Assembly: GCF_010093815.1 (NCBI RefSeq) | Contig: NW_022985601.1 | Span: 1 to 20,355, forward strand | Length of the DNA stretch: 20,355 bases | Origin: Pseudovirgaria hyperparasitica | Lineage: Eukaryota > Ascomycota > Dothideomycetes > Acrospermales > Acrospermaceae | Reading direction: 5' to 3' | Shown here: positions 3,720 through 20,223 of the stretch, one piece after another | Position numbering within the stretch: the first letter of the stretch is position 1 | Layout of the letters: every line of letters begins with the position of its first letter | The notes under the pieces: generated by a model | Seen by the model: the letters and a program-made list of their open reading frames with translations, nothing else | The model's database searches: none | Told to the model about the DNA's origin: nothing | Made by a program: the position numbers and the translations under genes

Positions 3720-6700
3720 CTAAACACAGTAACTTAACTCCTACCGCCTAAATCTAGTTTTTATATCTTATTACTATTAACGCTATCTTACTACCTATAG
3801 CCTAAGTTATATATAGAAATAGATAGATATAACAAGAGTCACAACTATCCTAGTTTAACTACCAGCTATAGAATAGCTAACTATAATACGCATATACAAC
3901 GTACAGAGGCCTTAAGCATTAGCACCCTCCTACCTTATATCTAGTACCTCCAAGACCTATATCTAATATCTAAAATAAGTTATAATATATATAGAGCTAC
4001 TATTATTAAGATAGTAAGTAAAGAAGTAGTAATAGAGCTTAAAACTAGTAGTATAGATACTACTATACTCTATAGAATAGTTAAGGAAACCGTTACTAGA
4101 GAATTTAATTAGTATATCGCGGCTATAAATAGTAAGTTAGTACTAATAGTTATAACCATAGATATAATAGAGGCTAAACTAGATATAGATACTATAGATA
4201 TAGATATATAGATATAGTTACCGCTAGAATATAAGGAGAAAGATAATATAGAAGATACTAAAATAGAAGACGACGTAGCTAGTATACTTAGATATATATA
4301 TATATACATGGTTCTAGATACTAATATTAGAGTAGTATTAAATATAGGCGTGGTTATAACTACTAATATAGATAATCTATCTATAAATATTATTATATCT
4401 AACGAAGCTTATTTACGCGTAAATACACTAGCTATAGAGATATAGTTATAGTTACTACCGGAATATAAGAAGAAAGAGAATATAGAAGATACTAAAATAG
4501 AAGATAACGTAGCTAGTATACTTATATATATATATAGTTCTAGATACTAATATTAGAGTAGTATTAAAGATAGATACGGCTATAACTACTAATATAGATA
4601 ATCTATCTATAAATATTATTATATCTAGTAAAGCTTATCTATACGTAAATATACTAGCTATAGAGATATAGTTATAGTTACTATTAGAATATATAGAGAA
4701 AGAGAATATAGAAGATACTAAAATAGAAGACGACGTAGCTAGTATACTTAGATATATATATATATATATATATAGTTCTAGATACTAACATTAGAGTAGT
4801 ATCGAAGATAGATACGGCTATAACTACTAATATAGATAATCTATCTATAAATATTATTATGTCTAGCGAAGCTTATCTACGCGTAAATATACTAGCTATA
4901 GAGATATAGTTATAGTTACCGTTAGAATATATAGAGAAAGAGAATATAGAAGATACTAAAATAGAAGATAACGTAGCTAGTATACTTAGATATATATATA
5001 TAGTCCTAGATACTAATATTAGAGTAGTATTAAAGATAGATATAGCTATAATTACTAATATAGATAATTCCCCTACGAATACCATTATGCCTCTAGATAC
5101 CGGTAAGACTTATCTATAGCTACTAGAAATAAAGAGGATACTCTTAGATAATATAGTAAACCTAGTTAATTCTCCGAAACGCCTAAAACTAGAATATATT
5201 ATACTACTAGATATCGACTAGTAGACACGTAAAAACTAGAAACTATTTAGATTAGTAGATAATTTATATAGTAGATATATATTAGATAGTATATTAGCGA
5301 ACGGCCTTAACTTTAAAATCCTTTCTATAGATAATAACTCTAATAGAGATAAAGTAAAGCTAGATATAGAGGACTTAATTCTAGTAGATAATAATATTAG
5401 TATAAAACTATAGGAAGCGTAAGTTATACTAAGAAGTAAGTAGGAATATATACTACTATACTAATATACCTATAGAATATTTACCGTTAATAACTCTAAT
5501 AAAGTAGTCTAAGCTATCTCTTATTATACGGAAGAGATATAGTTACTTACTATAAGTATATTTAGGCTTATACTAGATAACCTAATAAAGGAGTTTAGCT
5601 ATATACCTACTCTATATCTAGCCTTTAGTATAAGTAGATTATATAGGCTATAGGCCGGCTAGTTACTCGCGGTAGTTACTATATTTAAGTAGCGGGCGGG
5701 TCTATAGAAGTACTAGATCTTAGTAGATAGCCTAGGGCTAGAGAAGATAATCGTACTTATAACGTTTATCTACCTTACGTTTTATTAGGACTTTCTATAT
5801 AATAATATAGAACTTAATCTAGAAAATTATCTATAACTAACTTAAGACTCGGGTATAGATAGAAAGTATCTAATATAATCTCTATATCCGATTAAATGTC
5901 CGTGTAGCTAGACTAATAATTTTATCTATATACCCCGCCTTTAAGGACTATTTATACTATACTATCTAAGGTCCCTTCTAATAGTATATTAGCCGTAGCG
6001 CTTTAAATAGATATATAATAATATAGATAGTATATTTACTAATTAAATTAATAAATAGAACCCGATAAAGATAATAGTACGGCTAGTATACTTAAAAACC
6101 CTTACTAACGCCTCTAGTATCTAATAATTCTTATATATAGACTAATAATACTTAGCTAAGAGATACCTATACCCCGAATAGAAATATAGCGTTAATATTA
6201 GTAATACTACTAAATTAAAGACTAATAAGAAGTATATTATTAGGGCATGGTTAATTCCTATTAATAGAACCGCTACTACTAAATTTCCATTACGATATAT
6301 AAAGAACTATATAATCTATAGTACCGTCTAGAGTATAGAACTCTAATATCTTAAATCTTTTATAGAACGCGTGGTTATAAGAATAAAGAGAGTAAAAAAA
6401 TTTAGTACTAAAAATACTTAAACTCGCAAAGTAGTATTCCTTAGTATATTAATAGTAGATAAGTTCTATTCCGTAAAGAACCCCGATATAAAATAGTATA
6501 AATATATAATATATAATACCTTTATATTTAGTATATAGATTAGTATAACGCCCCTCTTAAATAGTCTAGTAGATATTCTAGTAGCTATTAAGGTAGGTAC
6601 TCTAGATAAGTTATCTAACTATATTAATAATAATACTACTAAAAGAGTATTTAAGAGTCTATAGAATAAAACTATAAGGAAGATTATTATAACGTGGTTA

Positions 6701-7980: not shown

Positions 7981-8094
7981 CTATATAGTATAGTAGTATA
8001 AATATAAACCACTATTTACTTATAATTATATATCTATATATATCTATACGTGAAGAGAAATAAGATATTTATTCTATACTATTAACCTTATAAA

Positions 8095-8328
8095 AAAACT
8101 TCTCACACCCTAACGGACCAAACTAGTCAATTCGGGGTAAAACAGCGATTTATATACATTAAACGATAGAGCATACCGAGTATAACAACCTCCGACACAC
8201 GTGCGTACGTGCAGCGTATAATACACGACGATACCGACATATAGAGATACTATATACATACGCTCGAAGACTCTTCGATAACACGAGCATAGACTACATC
8301 TAATAAATGCCGATACGCCGACCCCCTT
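8095..8328. other. Patch that escaped RIP, between two damaged elements
   Basis: No gene is visible. Unlike both flanks, this stretch keeps CpA and TpG (for example CTCACACCC, CACACGTGCGTACGTGCAG near 8197-8215) and has balanced base composition. It could be unique host DNA, or the 5' leader of the LINE that had too few copies to be mutated. It ends in CCCCC before the left palindrome. Confidence 0.5.
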
Positions 8329-8359
8329 TTATTAGTTAAGGGCTACCCTTAACTAATAA
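8329..8359. repeat. 31-nt palindrome, left of the LINE
   Basis: Arms TTATTAGTTAAGGG and CCCTTAACTAATAA are perfect 14-mers around a CTA centre. The whole is the exact reverse complement of the copy at 13139-13169. It lies 155 bp upstream of the ORF1 ATG. The arms contain no CpA or TpG, so no RIP target remains. Confidence 0.95.
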
Positions 8360-8514
8360 TCATAGCGGCCTTAGGCACCGACGTACCCCGGCTTCTACCG
8401 GGTATACCCCTAATACTAGTACGGTAGAAACGGCTATATAGCGGCATATTCTAGGACGATTAAACCCCCGTCTAATAAACGACGAATAACTAAGGGTGTA
8501 TAATACTATAGATA
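8360..8514 (+). other. Presumed 5' leader of the LINE
   Basis: The stretch is non-coding and moderately GC-rich. It holds a possible hairpin of CCCCGG and CCGGG around CTTCTA (about 8385-8405). LINEs of this group carry an internal promoter in the leader, but I see no motif that proves one here. Confidence 0.4.
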
Positions 8515-9723
8515 ATGGAGACGGAGGGGACCCTGCCCGGGGAGACCCTCCCGGATAAGATTAACTACTAGGTAGCACGTGTAGAGAGGGAAGTCGAGAA
8601 GGGAGAAACGGCCCTCCTTAGTATCTTCCGGAACCTCGTCTAGAATATTAGGGAGCTTACTATAGGAGTAAAACAGGCGCCGGAATTAGACCTAGAATCT
8701 AGACTAGATCGTATAGAGGCCAGCCTATAGAGGATCTAGGAGGGCCTCGCCTAGGGAAAACGCCCTAGCACGTGGGTATAGGTCGCCGTACCTATAAGCG
8801 GAATAGCCATGTTAGCTAAAATACCAAGGGCACCCACGGACGGGGCATATAGTATATAAGTCGCTATCTAGGATAAAGAAGTACTTATATAAGTCTAGTA
8901 AGCGTCTCTAAAGGATATTATAAATAAGATTAATAAATAGAAAGGGATATAGTTAAATATAGTGGCTGCCAAACTCACCCTAGAAGGTATAGTACTAACT
9001 ACTACTACTAACACGGCCTAGTAGACTATCTCACGCGACCCGAACGCGATTAATAATATCTTCCCTAGCGCGTCCGTCCGCGTAACCACGTACCCGATAT
9101 AGGTATATACTATCCCCGTCTAAGGACACGTTATCGGAGAAGATAATATTAAGCGAATAGAGTAATCTAACGAACCGAAGTACCCTAGGATTAAGATCGT
9201 AAAGGCGTGGTAGAAGAACGTCTAAGGGATTAAGATAAAATCGAAAAAGTACTCTACTATAATAGTAGAGCTTAGGGACCCCGCTCTCGCCTATAGAATA
9301 ATATAGGAGGGCTTCCTAGCCGAAGGAGAGCTACTCACGGCGGAACCATAGAATAGGGTATAGATAATAACGTAATACTTTAACTATTAGGGATATAGGT
9401 ATACTAGGTAGAGGTACTCTTAGAAGACCGCCTATGGGTAGTATAAATAGGGCCATAATACTAAGGAATGCCCTTATAAGACGTAGAGTGACGAGACGCG
9501 AGATAGGAACACCGCTAAGTACTCTAACTACGATAGAAAACACCTATCCTAGTCGGTAACGTGTACGAAATGTAAGTAGGTCGTAGAATATATTAACGCG
9601 ATAAAGATAAGAGGAGCGAGGTGGATATACTAAGCCATAAGGCCCTCGCTACCCTCGCCGCTATCTCTAACTTTACTTATAAATCTAGTAACCACCCCCC
9701 GAAGGGGAGAGGATAACGTGTAA
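8515..9723 (+). pseudogene. LINE ORF1 (Gag-like, triple CCHC), with nonsense codons
   Basis: ORF1 protein binds the element RNA and accompanies it to the nucleus or target. The ATG at 8515 opens frame 1, which can be followed 402 codons to a TAA at 9721-9723. An earlier in-frame TAA at 9631 is probably a mutated Gln codon. About 30 internal stops are all TAA/TAG. The C-terminal third shows the standard trio of knuckles: CX2CX4HX4C (ligand codons 9376, 9385, 9400, 9415, all now Tyr), CX2CX3HX4C (9433 and 9442 Tyr; His 9454 and Cys 9469 intact), and CX2CX3HX6C (9520 and 9529 Tyr; His 9541 and Cys 9562 intact). That spacing series is characteristic of I/Jockey/Tad Gag proteins. The N-terminus is charged and may form a coiled coil (residues about 20-75). 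The last base of the TAA is also the first base of ORF2. Confidence 0.85.
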
Positions 9724-12700
9724 TAGTATACTATATAGAGAAAGATAGGCCGACCCCGGGGTATACTTAAAGCCGCTACCGCGCGAGGATAATCACGCCT
9801 TAGCGCCACTAATATATAGACTCGAACTTTCCCTAGCACCTAATAAGGGCATAAGATATACTTATTATTATATAGGCGAACGTATAACATAAATAAGAAA
9901 ACTAAGCGACGCTCCTAGAAGAGATAGGAGCCGTAATAATAGCCATCTAGGAACCATATAAACACTACTAAACTAATAAGCTAATAATACACCTAGGATA
10001 CTATACCATCTATTCTATAGGCCCGGATAGGAGAGTTATATTTTATATATATAAGTCGATCCCGCTCTTAGAATAGTCTTATACCGAACGTAATAACCTC
10101 CGGATAACGCTATATCTCTAGATAAGTATAGGGCCTGTCCACATCTATAATATCTATAATTAATAGCGATCGCTTACGCTAGATGATATACTAGAGGGCA
10201 CCACGACGCCGGGATAATATATCCTCCTAGGCGACTTTAATCTCTACCATAGGTGGTAGGGAGGCCTAGCCGTCGCGAGAGAAGAACTTAGAGTAAGGGA
10301 ACTATATATATGGTACTACGACTTCCTATACCTCCTTATACCTATAGGGTAGATTACCTAGAGGAAATATAAATAGGATGAGGACGGGTCTACGCTCGAC
10401 CTCACCCTCGCTACTAAGTATATTAGCTATAGAGTATAGTACTACCGCCCGAGCCGGATATAGACGGACTCCGACCACGAATGTATAGAAACCATAATAG
10501 ACGTCTCCACTCTTAATAAATAATATAGAAAATAGCTATAGAAGGACACCGATTAGAATAAATACCTAGAGGACCTAGAATCGGCGATTCTAGACCCCTC
10601 TATAGTCGACGTATCTAACGGCCTAGCCATAGATAAGGCCGTGTAAGTCCTCCTTTAAGCATACTAAGTTATAAGAGATAAACACGTGCTATACCGAACG
10701 TATAGACCCCTAGAAGCGAGGGGTATACCTTAAATACGAGAGTGTAGAAGAGACGCCCGTAGACTATATATATATATATACTATATCCGGACGACCGAGG
10801 CGTGGGAAGAGTAGAAGGAAGTAGTGCGATATCGTGATAGGGCCCTCCGTAATAAACGACGAAAGTAATAGTATATAATTACTAATAAACACACACGGTA
10901 AGCCGTAGGGCTATAGCGTATGGTAAAGTAGGCTAAGGGTGTAGACGCGCCGACACCGCCGCTACTAATACCTCCCCTAATATACTAAGAGAGGATATAC
11001 TCTATAAGCCCGGAGAAGACGGAGATCTTATATAAAGTTATATTCCCCCTCCCGGAGCTAGTAGACCTATTAGATATTAATAATACTAAATATCTAGACG
11101 TAATTAATATTCCCTAAGAGGTTACTAAGGAGGATATACTCGACGCTATTAAAGTACTCCCGAATAATAAGGCACCCGGACCGGATAGAATACTAAATAG
11201 GTGCCTTAAACGCACTATACTAGCTACCCTACCGCTTATTAGTTATATATTTTAAGTATATATTAAGAACGGATACCACCCCTAAAGCTTCCGGGCCGTC
11301 TATACCGTTATACTCCCGAAACTAGAGAAGAACTCTAACTCCCTAAAAGGATAGAGGCTAATTACCCTTCTCTCCTATCTCGGGAAGATACTAGAGGCTA
11401 TAATCGCGAAGAAGATAAGCGCCGTAGTATAGGAATATAACCTCCTCCTAGTAAACCAGAAGGCGAAGGCTAGAAGCTCCCTAATTACCGCTATCTAATA
11501 TATCCTCGAAGTCGTCTAGGCCGTATAGAAGTAGGGACGTATAGTAACGCTACTCTCCCTCGATATAGCCGGCGTATTTAATAAAGTAAACCATACGAGA
11601 CTCATCTATAACTTACGGAAGAGGTATATACCCGCGTAGATTACGCGGTTTATATAGTCCTTCCTCGCCGAAAGAGTTACCTAGATATATATCCCCGGAT
11701 ATCGAAGTAAGTATAAGAAGATGGCTTACGGCATCCTATAAGGAAGTACTATCTCCCCGATTCTATTCCTCTTCTTTACTATAGACCTCCTCTAGAGAAT
11801 ATAACGTATAGAGGTAGTAGGGTACGTAGACGATATATACCTTCTAGCTATTAATAATAATACTAGCTAAATATATAGACGACTCGAATAAGACCACGGG
11901 AGATACGTCTAATAGGTAAAGCGCTATAGAGTAAAGTTCGCCCCCGAAAAGTACTAACTTATATACTTTATTAACCGCTATAGGAAATGGGCTACTAGGG
12001 AAGGCAAGCGATACTCTAGAATAGACGCCTTTAACGAACCGCTAATATAAAGCATGTACGCACTCGGCGTTATGATCGATAATAAGCTTAAATGGGGACT
12101 ATAGATAGTATACGCCGTTTCTAGGGCCCTCTAGGTAGAAGCCGCTATATAACGGATTATAGCCTCCACGTAGGGAACCGCCCGGGATAAGGCACGCTAA
12201 CTATATATATCTATAGTACGACCCGCCTTTATATACGGACACGAGTGCTAGTATACGGCCCTTATATAGACTAGGCAAATAAAGCTCGAATCCATATAGA
12301 ACCGTATACTCCATCTTATATTAGGCGTATATAAAGCTACTAACACGGTGCTACTACGACGCGAGATAGATATTATAAGTATATATAACTTCTACTAGAT
12401 ATAGAGGGTAGTATACTTTACTAAATAATAAGCATAGGAACGTGTAGAAAAAGTAGAATATACCTTCGCCGCGCTACGCGCGTGAGTTAGTATATACTAC
12501 TAAGCACTCTTATATATAGGCTAGACTCGACTACGGTATAAGTACCTAATAGAAATAGACTTAAACCGAGTAGTATAAGAGATTAAGGATAACCTAGATA
12601 CCCTTCTAGACTAATAGAGTCTTCGAGAGCTCGGACGAAGTATACGGTCGTGGATCTAAGATAAGTAGAAAGAGATACTCTAGGCCTAGTAGGCCTCCTA

Positions 12701-13145
12701 GTAGAATAGGTACCTAGAGTAGATCTAAGGACCATAGAAGGAGCCGAGTAAATAAATATATAAAGGGCTTATAAAGGCCTAGGTATCTATACTCCTCTAA
12801 GCCCGAACGGGCGCTATAAAACTCCTATACTACCTCTATAAGAGAGGCGTCCCCGACGTGTCTCTATAGTATAAGGCGTGTAGCCGGAGAGGTATAATAC
12901 GCTACTATCTCGTAATATACCCTAATCTTTATACGTAAAGGTAGAAGCTTATCTATATAATAAGAACCTCCGATATCGTATAATGGCTTAATAAGTACCC
13001 TAAGGATGTCGCCCGATGGATAATTATATACCTACCACTCCTCTAATTCTAGTAGACCCGGAAATATATACCGGAAGAGACCCGGCACATGCCGGTAGTA
13101 ACCCGATATATACCGGAAGAACCCCGGGAGAACCCCGATTATTAG
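9723..13145 (+). pseudogene. LINE ORF2 (endonuclease, reverse transcriptase, CCHC), with nonsense codons
   Basis: ORF2 would nick the target and reverse-transcribe the element RNA. Frame 0 stays in register for 1,140 codons. The proposed start is ATA at 9723, read as a mutated ATG in TAATG. The endonuclease domain shows QANV-type entry near 9876, the catalytic Glu in EPYK (9951), GDFN (10230), LDLTLAT near 10395 and SDHE (10470). The reverse transcriptase shows APGPDRI (11172), GSTISP near 11745 and GYVDDIYLL (11820), so the two catalytic Asp survive. A thumb-like LGVYKATNT segment lies near 12325. The C-terminal CX2CX7HX4C knuckle has codons 12870 (Tyr), 12879 (Cys), 12903 (Tyr) and 12918 (Tyr). 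I find no TDGS-type RNase H motif between thumb and knuckle, although many Tad-type elements have one. The stop TAG (13143-13145) lies inside the right palindrome. All internal stops read were TAA/TAG. Confidence 0.88.
13064..13120 (+). repeat. Short in-frame direct repeat at the ORF2 C-terminus
   Basis: ATATATACCGGAAGA occurs at 13064-13078 and 13106-13120, 42 bp (14 codons) apart, encoding two Tyr-Ile-Pro-Glu-Glu copies. A 6-bp-arm hairpin CCGGCA/TGCCGG lies between them. Confidence 0.75.
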
Positions 13146-13169
13146 TTAAGGGTAGCCCTTAACTAATAA
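13139..13169. repeat. 31-nt palindrome, right of the LINE
   Basis: It has the same 14-nt perfect arms as the copy at 8329-8359 but a TAG centre, so it is that copy's exact reverse complement. It contains the last codons and stop of ORF2 (TAT TAG at 13140-13145). Confidence 0.95.
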
Positions 13170-13386
13170 CCTCCGCACCTATACGTGCTATCTAAGGGTA
13201 AAATAACGGTAATATAGGCTATAGGCTAATAGGCGTACCCTATAGCTATATACTTAAGACGAAATAGAGGCTTAACGAGATGTAGTTATAGATATAAGGA
13301 AGTTTTTCCCTATGGGGTTTCTTCTTATATAGTGGCTTAGACTAGAGAAGGCATAGGCCTGTAGAGTACTACTCTACCTAGTTATA
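13170..13386. other. Non-coding flank, partly spared by RIP
   Basis: No gene is seen. CpA/TpG are present again (for example GATGTAG, CTATGGGG, GCATAGG). A short GGGTAAAATAACGG (13197) resembles GGGGTAAAACAGCG at 8135 on the other side of the LINE. A hairpin GTAGAGT/ACTCTAC sits at 13361-13377. Confidence 0.4.
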
Positions 13387-13387
13387 T

Positions 13388-13411
13388 AATATTATTATTA
13401 TTATTATTATT
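13388..13411. repeat. (ATT)n microsatellite
   Basis: About eight consecutive ATT trinucleotides separate the LINE flank from the larger satellite repeats. Confidence 0.9.
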
Positions 13412-13420
13412 CTATACTAT

Positions 13421-13735
13421 TATATAGTAGAACGTTACTATATATAGTAGTATATAATAGAATATTCTAATATATACTAGTATATTATAGAATATTTCTA
13501 GATACTTAAAGTATAGTTATAGTATAAAGTAGTATTATAATTATATACTAGTATATAGTAGGACGTTACTATATATGCCGGTATATAACGGGATATTCTA
13601 ATATACTATACGCCGGTATATTATAGAATATTCCTAGATACTTAAAGTATAGTCGTAATATAAAGTAGTATCGCTATACTACGCCGGTATATAGTAGAAT
13701 ATTACTATATATACTAGTATATAATAGAATTAAAT
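13421..13735. repeat. 131-136-bp tandem repeat, two units and a partial third
   Basis: TATATAGTAG begins units at 13421, 13552 and 13688. Internal landmarks recur in order: ACGTTACTATATAT, GGATATTC or GAATATTC, and CTAGATACTTAAAGTATAG. Unit 2 keeps GCCGGTATA where unit 1 has ACTAGTATA, i.e. C-to-T and G-to-A changes, so copies carry different amounts of RIP. Confidence 0.88.
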
Positions 13736-13761
13736 ATTTTCTTAACGTTCTCTTAATATTC

Positions 13762-13955
13762 GATAGAATAATTCTAAAAGAACTAGAATAACTCTAGAAG
13801 AACTAGAATAACTCTAGGAGGACTAGGATAACTCTAGAAGGACTAGAATAACTCTAGAAGGACCGGGACGACTCCGGGAGGATTGGGATAACTCTAGAAG
13901 TACCGGGATCTATTTAGAATAACTTTAGAAGTACTAGGATATCTAGAAGCATTGG
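13762..13955. repeat. 20-bp minisatellite, about seven units
   Basis: Exact 20-bp units run from 13781 to 13900, with decayed copies on both sides. The usual unit is GACTAGAATAACTCTAGAAG. The unit at 13861 reads GACCGGGACGACTCCGGGAG, which gives the usual unit by C-to-T and G-to-A changes alone and so looks near-ancestral. Confidence 0.92.
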
Positions 13956-15355: not shown

Positions 15356-15628
15356 ATATATAAAATAGATATATATAATACCCTTAGAAGAATAGGTAGT
15401 ATAGAAGGTATCGTAAATGAATAAGACTAAGGGATATAATATATAGTATATAAAGTATATTTAATTAAAAGTCTTAAGGAGACGACTATCTACGGCTATA
15501 GAAAGGTCTATATATATATGATTTACGTGCGTTATTATCAAGAATCGATAATATATATTAAATGGTATACTAAATACTAATAGTATTCTATAATTATCCG
15601 ATTTAGTCTTTTTTGGTATACTAAGAGT

Positions 15629-15650
15629 TAATATATTAATTAATATATTA
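15629..15650. repeat. 22-bp perfect AT palindrome
   Basis: TAATATATTAA is followed directly by its reverse complement. It is A/T only, so it could arise by chance more easily than the neighbouring palindromes. Confidence 0.8.
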
Positions 15651-15684
15651 TCTCTATCTATGTACTTCCGATTCCTACTTAATC

Positions 15685-15712
15685 TAATATAAGCTAGTAC
15701 TAGCTTATATTA
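15685..15712. repeat. 28-bp perfect palindrome
   Basis: TAATATAAGCTAGT is followed directly by ACTAGCTTATATTA with no spacer and no mismatch. Confidence 0.95.
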
Positions 15713-16025
15713 ATATAAGTCTCCTAGTCTATAGTCTCTAAGGAAGTTATAGAGTCTAGTCTAGTCTCTAGAGTAGAATAGAGCTAGTTACCTCTAGAGT
15801 AGAGTAGAGGTAGAATAGCTCTAGAGTAGAGTAGAGGTAGAATAGCTCTAGAGTAGAGTAGAGCTAGAATAGCTCTAGAGTAGAGTAGAACTAGAACTCT
15901 TCTATAGAATACTAGAGAATATACTTCTATAGAATAGAATAGAGTAGAGCTAGACTCTTATTCTATATAACTTATATATTATATATAATAGATTATAAGG
16001 TTATTATATATATAAAACTTATACA
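15713..16025 (-). mobile_element. Copia-B 3' LTR, proximal part (far boundary uncertain)
   Basis: Reading the minus strand, TGTATAAG starts at 16025 directly after the polypurine tract. The same TGTATAA start is seen in copia-A. The LTR contains the 27-bp minisatellite. The visible end of the 5' LTR (20236-20355) could not be matched to any part of this side by eye, so the LTR length is unknown. Confidence 0.5.
15766..15899. repeat. 27-bp minisatellite within the copia-B LTR, five units
   Basis: CTCTAGAGTAGA begins units at 15766 (26 bp), 15792, 15819, 15846 and 15873 (27 bp each). Units differ mainly at one base (GAGGTAG, GAGCTAG, GAACTAG). Confidence 0.92.
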
Positions 16026-16034
16026 CCCCCTTAA
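16026..16034 (-). promoter_or_regulatory. Polypurine tract of copia-B
   Basis: The minus strand reads TTAAGGGGG directly before the LTR TG at 16025-16024, and 44 bp after the gag-pol stop. Confidence 0.8.
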
Positions 16035-16077
16035 TCTATATATATATATATATACCTTATATACTATTTTTTTATTT

Positions 16078-19000
16078 TTATAGGTTATTAGCTCTATTAA
16101 TTAAATTAATAGAGTCTATAAAATACTTCTATATAGAGTAGTTAACTGCCTTAGTTAGACTATCTACTATTTGGTTCTTAGTATTTATATATATTAGATT
16201 AATTACCTTCCTTAGGTAATTATCTCTAATAAAATGGTATTAAATGTCTATATACTTAGTTCTAGCATGATAGGCTGGATTCTTTGTAATTTCTATAGCT
16301 GATTGATTATCTATATATAAATCCTTAATCTCTATATTATTTAATATAGGAATTTGAGTAATAAGAGACTTAATATATAATCATTCCTTAGTTACTTTCT
16401 TAAGGGCCATATATTCAGCCTCACAGGAACTAAGTGCTATAGTTTTTTATAATTTTGAATCCCAGGAGATAGGGTTATTCCCTATTAGGAATATATATCC
16501 AGTAGTACTTTTTCTAGATATATCCCCCCCCCAATCTGAGTCTACATAACCTTTAGCTACTATATTATTAGATTTAGAGTCTTTAATAGAGTCTCTATTA
16601 ATATAGAGCTCTATTTCTAAATCCTTAGAAAATAATATATATTGCCATAGCTTATTTAAGGCTTTAAAGTGTTCTAGACTTGGATTAGATATAAATCTAG
16701 CTAGATAGCCTACGGGATATTTTAGGTCACATCTAGTTAGACTAGTTAAATAGATAAGAGAACTAATTTCCCTTTGAAATTATCTAATATCTTTTAATTT
16801 AGCTTGTAAGGGGTTTTTATCTAATTTAATACCTAGAGATAAAGGTATTTTGGATGGCTTTATATTCTCTTTATTAAACTTAATTAATAAGTTCTTAATA
16901 AAAGAAGATTGAGATAATATAATAGAACCTTTAGTTCTATCTCTCTTTATTTCCATTCCTAGGTAATATTTAGCTTACCCTAGATTAGATATATCTAATT
17001 TAGAGTACTTAGTTATCTCTAAATAGAAGTTATCTATATCTTTAGTATTAGGTGCAAAAACTAATATATCGTCTACATAGGCTAAAATAATTAGATTATC
17101 TCTAATATAGACTGCATTTTCAGCTATAATTTAAGTAAACTTTAAGGATATTAATATATCCTTAAGTAGGTCTTGCCACTCTCTAGCTAATTGCTTAAGT
17201 CTATATAAAGCTCTATTTAATTTATAGACTCTATTAGGGTAATTAGAGTCTATAAACCCCTCTAGCTAGTATATATATATGGTTTCTTTTAATCTAGCAT
17301 TAGGAAAAGCTGATTTAAAGTCCCATTGATGTATTTTAAGGTTATATAACCTGCCTATAAGTAGTAATAATCGAATTACTATAGGTCTTGTAGTATAAGT
17401 AAAGGTTTCTAGGTAATCTATTCCATATTTTTATAGAAAACCTCTAGCTACCTATCTAGCTTTATACTTATTAATGGTATTATCTAGGTTTAATTTAATT
17501 TTAAATACCTATCTACCAGAGATTATATTAGTAGAACCATTCTTAGGTTTATCTACTAAATCCCATGTATTTTGACTTAATAAGTCATTATACTCCTTAA
17601 TAGTAGTATTTTTCTATTCTATAGCATATGTACTTTTCATAGCTTATTTATATAATTTAGGCTCTATAATATCTAAGGATATATTATAAGCACTAAATTT
17701 AAATAGACTATTATAAGTATAATAACACATAGCATTAGAACTAATATTACTATTATTAGCATAAGCTAATTCGTCTTCTAAATCTGAATTAATAGAGTCT
17801 ATAGACTGTCTAGGTTGTCTAGAGTCTCTAGACCCTCTAGAGAGTCTAGGTTGATTTTCTCTATTATTCATAAATTGATTCTGACTATAATTATCACCCG
17901 ATTCAGCTGTAATTTTAGGAGTATTTAAATCATATATAGACTCATTATCTGTGTAATTTTCGTCTTCTTCTGATTCATTTTCACTTAGTTCTCTATATAT
18001 AGACTCTTACTCTAGAGAGTCTAAGTAGAGTTTTTAACTTTTATTATAAAAAGTACTCTCTAGTATAGTAATATCTTTAGCCTATGTAGTAGTATTATTA
18101 CTAATATTAAGTAATTTATACTAATTATTATCATTATAGTTTATAAGATAATATAAGCTACTTCTTGGCTCTAATTTGTTCTTAGGTATATGTTCCTTTT
18201 TATATACTCTAGAACCCTATACTTTTATATGTGTAATAATTAGTTTTTTACTATATTTAAGTTCATAGGGAGTTTTATATTCTATACTAGAATATGGTAT
18301 TCTATTATATAGATAACACGTAGCTAATAGAGCTTTAGCCTAGTAATAATAAGGTAAATTAGCTTAATAAAGTAATAATCTAACTTTATTAAGTAATGTC
18401 CTATTAATTCTCTCTACTTTAGAGTTCTATTCTGGACTATAAGGACATGTATAGGTATATTCTATGCCTTTTTCATTAAAATAAGACTTATATAATGATG
18501 ATTTATACTCTCTAGCATTATTAGAGTGGAATCTCTTTACTTTATTATTATTATTAGACTAGTTTTCTTGTCTAGTAATATAATTCTTAGTAATTAAGAA
18601 GTTCTCATCTCTATTTTTCATAATATCTACCTCTAGATATTTAGAATAGCCATCTAAATAAGTTATAAAGTATATATAATCATTTATAGTAGATGGTAAA
18701 GGACCATAAATGTCACTATATATAACCTCTAGATATTCCTTAGGTTTAGGAATATAATTAGACTTATATATTTTAGTATAACTAGCCTTTAGACATATTT
18801 CATACTCTTTATATAATAGATTATTATCTAGGAATTCTATAATCTTATCATTTTTAAGTTGATTTAATGCCTTTTGATTTATATAGCCTAATCTATTATG
18901 CCATAAATCTATAGTAGAATTAATAGAACTACTTTGAGTGTCTATAATCTTATTTTCTATAGAGGTATATAAAGAATCAGGTTCTTTATATATAGGAGTT

Positions 19001-20208
19001 GTCTCAAGAATACTAATATTATTTATTATACTAGCCTTAGCTAATAGCCTCTTATTCTTTAAATAGATGTAGGCATAGTTATCTTTAAATAATATAGACT
19101 TTCTATCTCTAATTATCTTTCCTATAGATAATAGATTTACTCTAAAATTAGGTATATAAAGGTAGTTCTTAATTAATATCTTTATATTAGTAGATGTAAT
19201 TAGAACTCTATAATCGCCTATACTACTAGCATTTATAACTCTATTTGAATCTCCCTATTTAATAGTATTATTACATTCTTTAATACTAATAAAGAGGCTC
19301 TTATTAGAGTAAATATTAATGCTAGCCCCTGAATCTATAATCCAAGAGGTTTTATGGAAAGAGCTATTAATAGACTCTATTTTTTAAATAGTAGAGTCAT
19401 TAATTAAAGTAGTAAATACCTCTTCTTCTTGTTTAGAAGAAGCATTTATCTCTTTATTCTTCTCTTTCTCTTTCTTTTACTTTTGCTTTCCTTTCCCCTT
19501 ATTATAGGGTTTTAAATGAGGATATTTTTTAAAACACTTATCTTCTATATGATTTGGTTTCTTACAGTAAGAGCATTTATTAGAACTGGTATTATTGGCC
19601 ATTTCTATATCAATTATCTCATTTTTTGGTAAAGACTTTGATTTTATCCTTCTAGACTCATCTAGTAGATAATTAAATATTTCATCTATATCTAAATCCT
19701 TATCCTTTCTAATAGACTGGGTAATAATAGTTACTAGGTTTTCATATTCCTTAGTAAGGTTATTTAATACCCATGCTATTATGAATTTATCAGGTAATTC
19801 AAGTAATTTAGACTTTAGATCATCTCTAATTCTTATAATCTTATTTAAATACTCCTCTATATTCTTAGAGGCTCTAAGAGTAGTATTAAATAATTCTTTA
19901 TATAATAAGAATTCAGAGCTAAACCCCTTTGCCTAGTATAGATTCTTTAACCTTATCCATAAATTAAAGGGATTTAATATATTCCTTGTTTGGAGCAAAG
20001 GGCTATTAGCAAGTGCTAGTCTAATAATAGACATAGTCTTTCTTACCATTAGTATATAGTTCTTAATTTCAAGACTATTCATGCTCTTAGGATGTGCTTC
20101 TATAGTAGTAGTATAACCTTTTTCTATTAGAATAGACTCCATTCTAATAGCCTAGATATTATAATTACTAGCTCCTAAGAGTCTAGGAATTTTAGATAAA
20201 TCGCTCAT
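16078..20208 (-). pseudogene. Copia-B gag-pol polyprotein, one uninterrupted frame with nonsense codons
   Basis: The ATG at 20208-20206 and the stop TAA at 16080-16078 are in the same frame 1,377 codons apart, normal for a Ty1/copia polyprotein. Domains in order: Gag (residues about 1-200); CX2CX4HX4C knuckle intact (Cys 19575, Cys 19566, His 19551, Cys 19536); protease DSGAS (Asp 19335); integrase zinc site with His 18900 and one Cys 18795 kept but the second His (18885) and first Cys (18804) now Tyr; integrase core with Asp 18714, second Asp changed to Asn in HSNNAREY (18522), and Glu kept in VERINRTL; a Ser/Asn/Arg-rich linker (about 17870-17640); reverse transcriptase with AYVDDILVF (Tyr 17079); RNase H with VDSDWGGD near 16540, SSCEAEYMAL (Cys 16425) and DNQSAIE. 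More than a dozen in-frame stops were read, for example at 20154, about 19934 and 19480; all were TAA/TAG. No frameshift was found at eight checked anchors. It cannot make protein, but it is close to its progenitor. Confidence 0.93.
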
Positions 20209-20223
20209 TTTTTAGGTTCTATA

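Follow-up and report, generated by a model that had tools for sequence, protein, structure and literature searches.

A 31-nucleotide palindrome carried by a LINE and a Ty3/Gypsy element of Pseudovirgaria hyperparasitica: a possible hairpin signal at the edges of open reading frames

A stretch of 20,355 nucleotides from the ascomycete Pseudovirgaria hyperparasitica (contig NW_022985601.1, positions 1 to 20,355 of the forward strand; hereafter the window, meaning this whole stretch) carries a long interspersed nuclear element (LINE) that contains two palindromes of 31 nucleotides, one near either end, and the question is what these palindromes are and why the element should have them. The window is contig 52 of the 59 contigs of a 35.03 Mb assembly, and the sample for everything below is this one genome. 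A 14-nucleotide arm matches the window four times, at 8329-8342 (plus), 8346-8359 (minus), 13139-13152 (plus) and 13156-13169 (minus), while none of 100 dinucleotide shuffles of the window contained any match to the arm. An earlier note on this DNA, made from its letters alone, was right that the 14-nucleotide arms are perfect, that the centres read CTA on the left and TAG on the right, and that the two 31-mers are exact reverse complements. The palindrome is read here, with a probability of roughly 0.4, as a hairpin signal with a putative function that is common to two classes of retrotransposon, the LINE and a Ty3/Gypsy element, and is located at the edges of their open reading frames (ORFs). 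The features of the LINE are as follows, where RIP denotes repeat-induced point mutation and UTR an untranslated region.

8069..8084, plus strand: left copy of the target-site duplication, TTATTCTATACTATTA, a 16-nucleotide exact direct repeat flanking the block of homology.
8085..13406, plus strand: LINE (non-LTR retrotransposon, LTR standing for long terminal repeat) of about 5.3 kb with an (ATT)n tail, defined by homology among copies and by its domains; the boundary between tail and duplication at 13406/13407 is ambiguous by a few bases.
8329..8359, plus strand: left palindrome, in the LINE 5' UTR; centre CTA, taken as a RIPped CTG.
9801..13145, plus strand: ORF2 region (endonuclease and reverse transcriptase), interrupted by RIP-type stops, with 9801 as a provisional left limit.
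13139..13169, plus strand: right palindrome; centre TAG, taken as a RIPped CAG, with the ORF2 stop codon TAG within it at 13143-13145.
13407..13422, plus strand: right copy of the target-site duplication, TTATTCTATACTATTA, an exact match to 8069-8084.

The element is an ordinary endonuclease-reverse transcriptase LINE with target-site duplications. When stops are read through, its ORF2 frame matches Exo_endo_phos_2 (PF14529, E=3.6e-9) and RVT_1 (PF00078, E=7.9e-22), and the presence of both domains in one ORF is that of an APE-endonuclease-type LINE, as the variable sequence of the target-site duplications and the simple-repeat tail (ATT)n at the 3' end are those of such a LINE. A profile search of the RIPped LINE sequence gave no match to an RNase H domain. 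In BLAST comparisons of the window flanks with other copies, homology in most copies begins at about 8066-8112 and ends at about 13407-13429, and direct target-site duplications of 14-18 nucleotides were found, in a count made without a shuffle control, in 12 of 12 copies (the window and 11 others in which both ends could be read).

The left palindrome is therefore located about 244 nucleotides from the 5' end of the LINE and the right one 237 nucleotides from its 3' end. The earlier note had the two palindromes bracketing the element, which is not the case since homology among copies runs for about 240 nucleotides beyond each of them, and none of its three suggested readings is supported. They are not terminal structures of an unusual LINE lineage, because the true ends lie outside both; the element is not a hybrid in which LINE ORFs sit between inverted ends, because the inverted sequences are some 240 nucleotides inside it; and a palindromic target preference is not supported, all 12 copies having ordinary direct duplications outside the palindromes. 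Palindromes that themselves represent target-site duplications were considered and are ruled out by the true ends and by the 16-nucleotide direct repeat outside both. Its suspicion that at least the right palindrome belongs to the element is supported, and this extends to both of them: they occur at homologous places in aligned LINE copies and in diverged LINE families (47 five-prime and 49 three-prime alignment rows).

The asymmetric centres are most simply traced to RIP. Depletion of the RIP type is real, with observed/expected ratios in the LINE of 0.25 for CpA and 0.20 for TpG compared to 1.00-1.11 in loci L114 and L115, and the RIPped arms are free of CpA and TpG and hence blind to RIP, as had been noted. 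Un-RIPped loci with abundant CpA and TpG around the palindrome (L114, L115 and L116) read TTATTAGTCAAGGGC-W-GCCCTTGACTAATAA, where W is A or T, and the centres of the aligned LINE copies are mostly CTA, CTG, TAG or CAG, with further changes in a few rows. Judged from these sequences, the palindrome would most simply consist of a 15-nucleotide arm and a one-base centre of A or T, the CTA and TAG centres arising from RIPped CTG and CAG by one neighbouring C-to-T or G-to-A change. That the window holds an exactly inverted pair would then be due to a coincidence of centre base and RIP and not to a property of the element; RIP can in this manner turn symmetric palindromes with CTG or CAG centres into seeming inverted pairs.

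The right palindrome contains the ORF2 stop codon, another observation of the earlier note which holds. Differences between the LINE and L115 favour the third codon position of the ORF2 frame (40, 35 and 63 at the three positions), and this frame runs GAT TAT TAG into the palindrome. The same end can be read directly in the un-RIPped loci, where ORF2 finishes with ENPDY (L114) and ENSDY (L115) immediately before the stop. The two families, which share about 75% identity overall, are near-identical over about 55 nucleotides of the 3' UTR downstream of the palindrome.

At the level of the assembly, the 14-nucleotide arm has 505 matches on one strand and 502 on the other, compared to 0 and 1 for its letters reversed without complementing. 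There are 454 full 31-mers if degeneracy of the RIP type is allowed, and 524 dyads with a spacer of 0-30 nucleotides, among which all 50 listed have their half-sites 5 nucleotides apart. A longer transposon with the arms as terminal inverted repeats was looked for in these 50 of the 524 dyads and no other spacing was seen, arms more than 30 nucleotides apart being outside the search. Flanks were clustered for 54 distinct sites, two in the window and 52 on contigs 1-4, leaving out sites with less than 100 nucleotides of flank (except L069) and counting the duplicates L005/L006 and L007/L008 once. These sites comprise 17 at the LINE 3' position, 15 at the LINE 5' position and 8, 7 and 7 at three positions of a Gypsy element, here called A, B and C, the lone L069 site being put in C from a comparison of elements; none lies elsewhere, and two further sites on contig 4 are a Gypsy A and a Gypsy B. 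The flanks of LINE and Gypsy positions are unrelated and the 31-mer is the same. The earlier note had held that a dispersed repeat unlinked to LINE copies would speak against its proposal, and this is partly what was found: the palindrome is also repeated outside LINEs, in a Ty3/Gypsy element. Sites with little RIP and at most one arm mismatch number 26 (25 with a slightly longer pattern), and all were classified. By best flank match 10 are LINE 3', 2 are LINE 5', 10 are Gypsy C and 1 is Gypsy B, and the other three are L127, which is LINE 3'-like by eye, a chimera (L116) and a site in host DNA (L118). No match was found in Rfam at gathering score for the window and six loci, nor any exact match to the palindrome in prokaryote genomes and viral contigs.

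The second carrier encodes an RNase H domain (PF17917, 3.9e-14, with PF17919 at 2.3e-13) followed by an integrase zinc domain (PF17921, 8.6e-5, at 23 bits below the cut-off of 25.5), and contains an LTR-like direct copy of 374 nucleotides. This order of domains together with the LTR-like copy identifies it as a Ty3/Gypsy element of about 11.4 kb; a Pfam search at its ends gave no match. Site C lies about 500 nucleotides downstream of the 5' LTR and is imperfect, reading TTAGTCAAGG-GATTG-CCTTGACTAA in the un-RIPped locus L117; site A precedes the RNase H domain by about 1.5-1.6 kb; and site B, which coincides with the stop codon that ends the last ORF, is about 150 nucleotides before the 3' LTR. 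At site B a relative of the Gypsy copy (L060), which was chosen for an adjacent LINE and independently of the palindrome, is 69% identical over 1,184 nucleotides and keeps the palindrome with one change of the RIP type, while the flanks differ at about one third of positions. The differences between the two fall preferentially at one codon position as far as site B, and the frame so defined ends TAT TAG within the palindrome, so that LINE ORF2 and the last ORF of the Gypsy element have their stop in the same phase. Among sites A, B and C the frame is defined at B alone; L129, which was sought as site A of the relative, is without homology. In the 11.4-kb element itself (L069/L113/L070, contig C1:2709000-2720500) about 4.7 kb separate the integrase zinc domain from the last stop, and at least the last 1.1 kb of this stretch is coding by its substitution pattern.

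The copy in host DNA (L118, contig C19:255598) lies in single-copy, un-RIPped sequence. It is a near-palindrome of 47 bp with 23-nucleotide arms at 91% and a one-nucleotide centre; both arm mismatches are of the RIP type by eye, and since an A-T pair replaces a C-G pair beside the centre, the symmetry is kept. A search for direct repeats of at least 10 nucleotides around this copy found none, which leaves room for a repeat of a few bases, and no target duplication was seen at the five retrotransposon positions, where flanks were read by eye. Pfam gave no match around the host copy, and a nearby Zim17/Hep1-like frame is the authors' own reading, not a database match. The chimera (L116, G000:C47:11016) is also un-RIPped and consists of an ORF start, about 22 nucleotides of LINE 5' UTR and the palindrome, followed by a fragment of a second LTR retrotransposon (RVT_1 at 2.1e-36 and a weak aspartyl protease). 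Homology to this second element starts at or just inside the edge of the palindrome, which is missing at the equivalent place in four other copies of the LTR fragment. A search of this one genome for an empty homologous site found only the half-deleted form of the palindrome described below. Locus L127 (G000:C36:16729) has no match among the five references from the window and the Gypsy element; by eye it is like L120, a LINE 3' copy, and is taken as another such copy, whose 5' truncation lies inside the palindrome. Its truncation point is as would be expected if reverse transcription had stalled at the hairpin.

Taken together, the sequences give modest support to a signal, as the palindrome occupies five positions in two classes of retrotransposon, all of them internal and at an ORF edge where the frame is known. 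The RNA hairpin is predicted at -18.1 kcal/mol (z = -6.3). In the favoured explanation the palindrome would act in cis in the transcript as a hairpin of 13-14 bp at ORF edges, and one host factor or process, be it RNA stability, export, translation or packaging, would read the hairpin alike in both classes and so keep its sequence nearly fixed. Either the capture or the insertion of a short palindromic sequence of 31 nucleotides would have brought it into both classes. The age of the association can be gauged from a search with the ORF2 C-terminal peptide, from which the palindrome was excluded. All 150 candidates scored (of 236) were matches, and among the 14 that fall in the range with listed palindrome positions (contigs C1-C3 and C4 to 383 kb), 11 have the full palindrome, 2 have half of it and 1 breaks off short of the site. 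These matches, together with the 23 of 31 positions kept in the distant, un-RIPped LINE L140, indicate a long history of the palindrome in this LINE lineage.

A number of observations weigh against a conserved signal. Transcription of the palindrome sites is assumed from their position, and the palindrome may act as RNA or as DNA. In the LINE alignments (47 rows at the 5' and 49 at the 3' site) 5 and 2 of 201 windows of 31 nucleotides match or undercut the palindrome in total variation, counts which take in its own window and neighbours and which speak for the signal; with only transversions counted, these numbers rise to 94 and 40 of 201, and by that measure the palindrome is unremarkable in LINEs. 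Because the arms are without RIP targets, much of the contrast in conservation is blindness to RIP. Because the palindrome pattern itself served to find L114, L115, L116, L118, L120 and L127, their match is biased, and L140, which was found without this bias, keeps only the 23 positions given above. L140 also has TAT TGG in place of TAG, with its stop nine residues past the tyrosine, and as one in three palindrome phases gives TAG by chance, the two agreeing stop codons are only suggestive. The earlier note had regarded LINE copies lacking the palindrome as evidence against its view, which is borne out in part. A query with the 5' region gave 22 closest copies, of which 19 have a known 3' end, the expected place being held by other sequence (L133, L136) or by the 5' site of another LINE (L137) in the other three. 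Nine of the 19 have a full right palindrome, one of them with a single G-to-A, and in 10 it is broken by loss of its left arm. Two of the 10 half-deleted copies were checked (L026/L059 and L027/L064) and have normal target-site duplications, from which it follows that the right palindrome is dispensable for transposition or spread in this subfamily. The left palindrome has two stem mismatches in 8 of the 47 rows and in 8 of the 22 closest copies, and no compensatory changes were seen within LINEs. Among copies with a known 3' end the right palindrome is half-deleted in 7 of 7 with a mismatched left palindrome versus 3 of 12 with an intact one, but these copies share descent and are not independent cases.

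The order in which the explanations are favoured is the hairpin signal, then a mobile palindrome as its main rival, a DNA operator and neutral copying. A tiny mobile palindromic element of the nucleus, able to insert on its own, tolerated at the edges of ORFs and multiplied by the retrotransposons that it has entered, would account for a crisp 31-nucleotide unit whose flanks are unrelated at five retrotransposon positions and one host site. On this reading the 47-bp copy in host DNA would be a solo insertion, and its location in un-RIPped single-copy DNA and its 23-nucleotide arms fit this, as do the junction of the C47 chimera at the palindrome edge and the dispensability of the palindrome in some LINEs. 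Such an element is nevertheless rather doubtful, since the host site is only one of 26 low-RIP sites, no direct repeat (of at least 10 nucleotides at the host copy, by eye at the retrotransposon positions) and no empty site came to light, and the palindrome is old in both lineages and not sporadic.

A DNA operator, with a dimeric DNA-binding protein of the host that would bind the dyad and thereby control both classes, is unlikely. A perfect dyad with a 5-nucleotide spacer in 50 of 50 listed sites and an A/T centre would suit it, and each un-RIPped arm contains TTAGTCA, presumably resembling a Yap1/AP-1 type site. Yet none of the retrotransposon sites examined is in an LTR or upstream of the element and two are at stop codons, a bZIP site is shorter than 31 bp, and the only host site found has no gene shown under its control. 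Neutral hitch-hiking has the least to recommend it and is improbable. In this view template switching or recombination carried the palindrome from one element type to another on one or a few occasions, and it seems conserved through RIP-blind arms and sequence exchange among copies. The idea draws on the lack of CpA and TpG in the RIPped arms, the weak transversion-only result in LINEs, the amplified half-palindrome copies and the C47 chimera, which shows that such joins occur, whereas five separate positions must each have gained the unit and the Gypsy relative at 69% identity has kept it.

Elsewhere in the window, a Copia LTR retrotransposon (gag, integrase and RVT_2) occupies 15400-20210 on the minus strand and is less RIPped than its neighbours, with observed/expected ratios of CpA and TpG of 0.40 versus 0.06-0.25. 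A tandem array with a unit of 238 bp (3.8 copies at 87%) is located at 4195-5068, and satellite-like arrays with periods of 136, 30 and 20 are found at 13402-13909, at and beyond the 3' target-site duplication of the LINE.

LINEs and LTR retrotransposons differ in their mechanism of replication, and an exact 31-nucleotide element common to both at ORF boundaries is not expected. Should the palindrome be functional as a signal, it would point to a single step in the host on which both classes rely. In the widest and more tentative formulation, the palindrome of 31-47 bp may be a nuclear control unit, selfish or shared, that travels in both LINE and LTR retrotransposons, either a parasite of parasites or a pass-word for one host factor, and is near letter-perfect while its carriers have diverged by one quarter to one third. 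The window LINE resembles fungal LINEs of the Tad1 kind in its endonuclease and reverse transcriptase domains and its target-site duplications, the palindromes being the only difference shown. Rickettsia palindromic elements likewise occur in or at the ends of ORFs; these are bacterial, longer and not borne by retrotransposons. The mitochondria of Neurospora reportedly contain PstI palindromes. In the titles and abstract openings covered, which include few subscription papers, nothing names a palindrome common to LINE and Gypsy elements. The palindromic GC clusters of yeast mitochondria, such as GC42, are sporadic between strains and have putative AG target duplications; like the palindrome described here they are short hairpins in many copies whose stem is more conserved than the loop and which are suspected to be mobile, and unlike it they are mitochondrial and GC-rich, whereas the present palindrome is nuclear, occupies fixed sites of two retrotransposon classes and has no visible target duplication (PMC4478555). 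The palindromic microsatellite repeats of Fusarium mitochondria are also proposed mobile palindromes of a filamentous fungus, with (A)n/(T)n arms and length variation in mitochondrial DNA in place of fixed arms of mixed sequence in nuclear retrotransposons (PMC7218506). By analogy, these mitochondrial clusters (PMC4478555, PMC7218506) would seem the nearest parallels, and if the palindrome is mobile it would be their nuclear counterpart.

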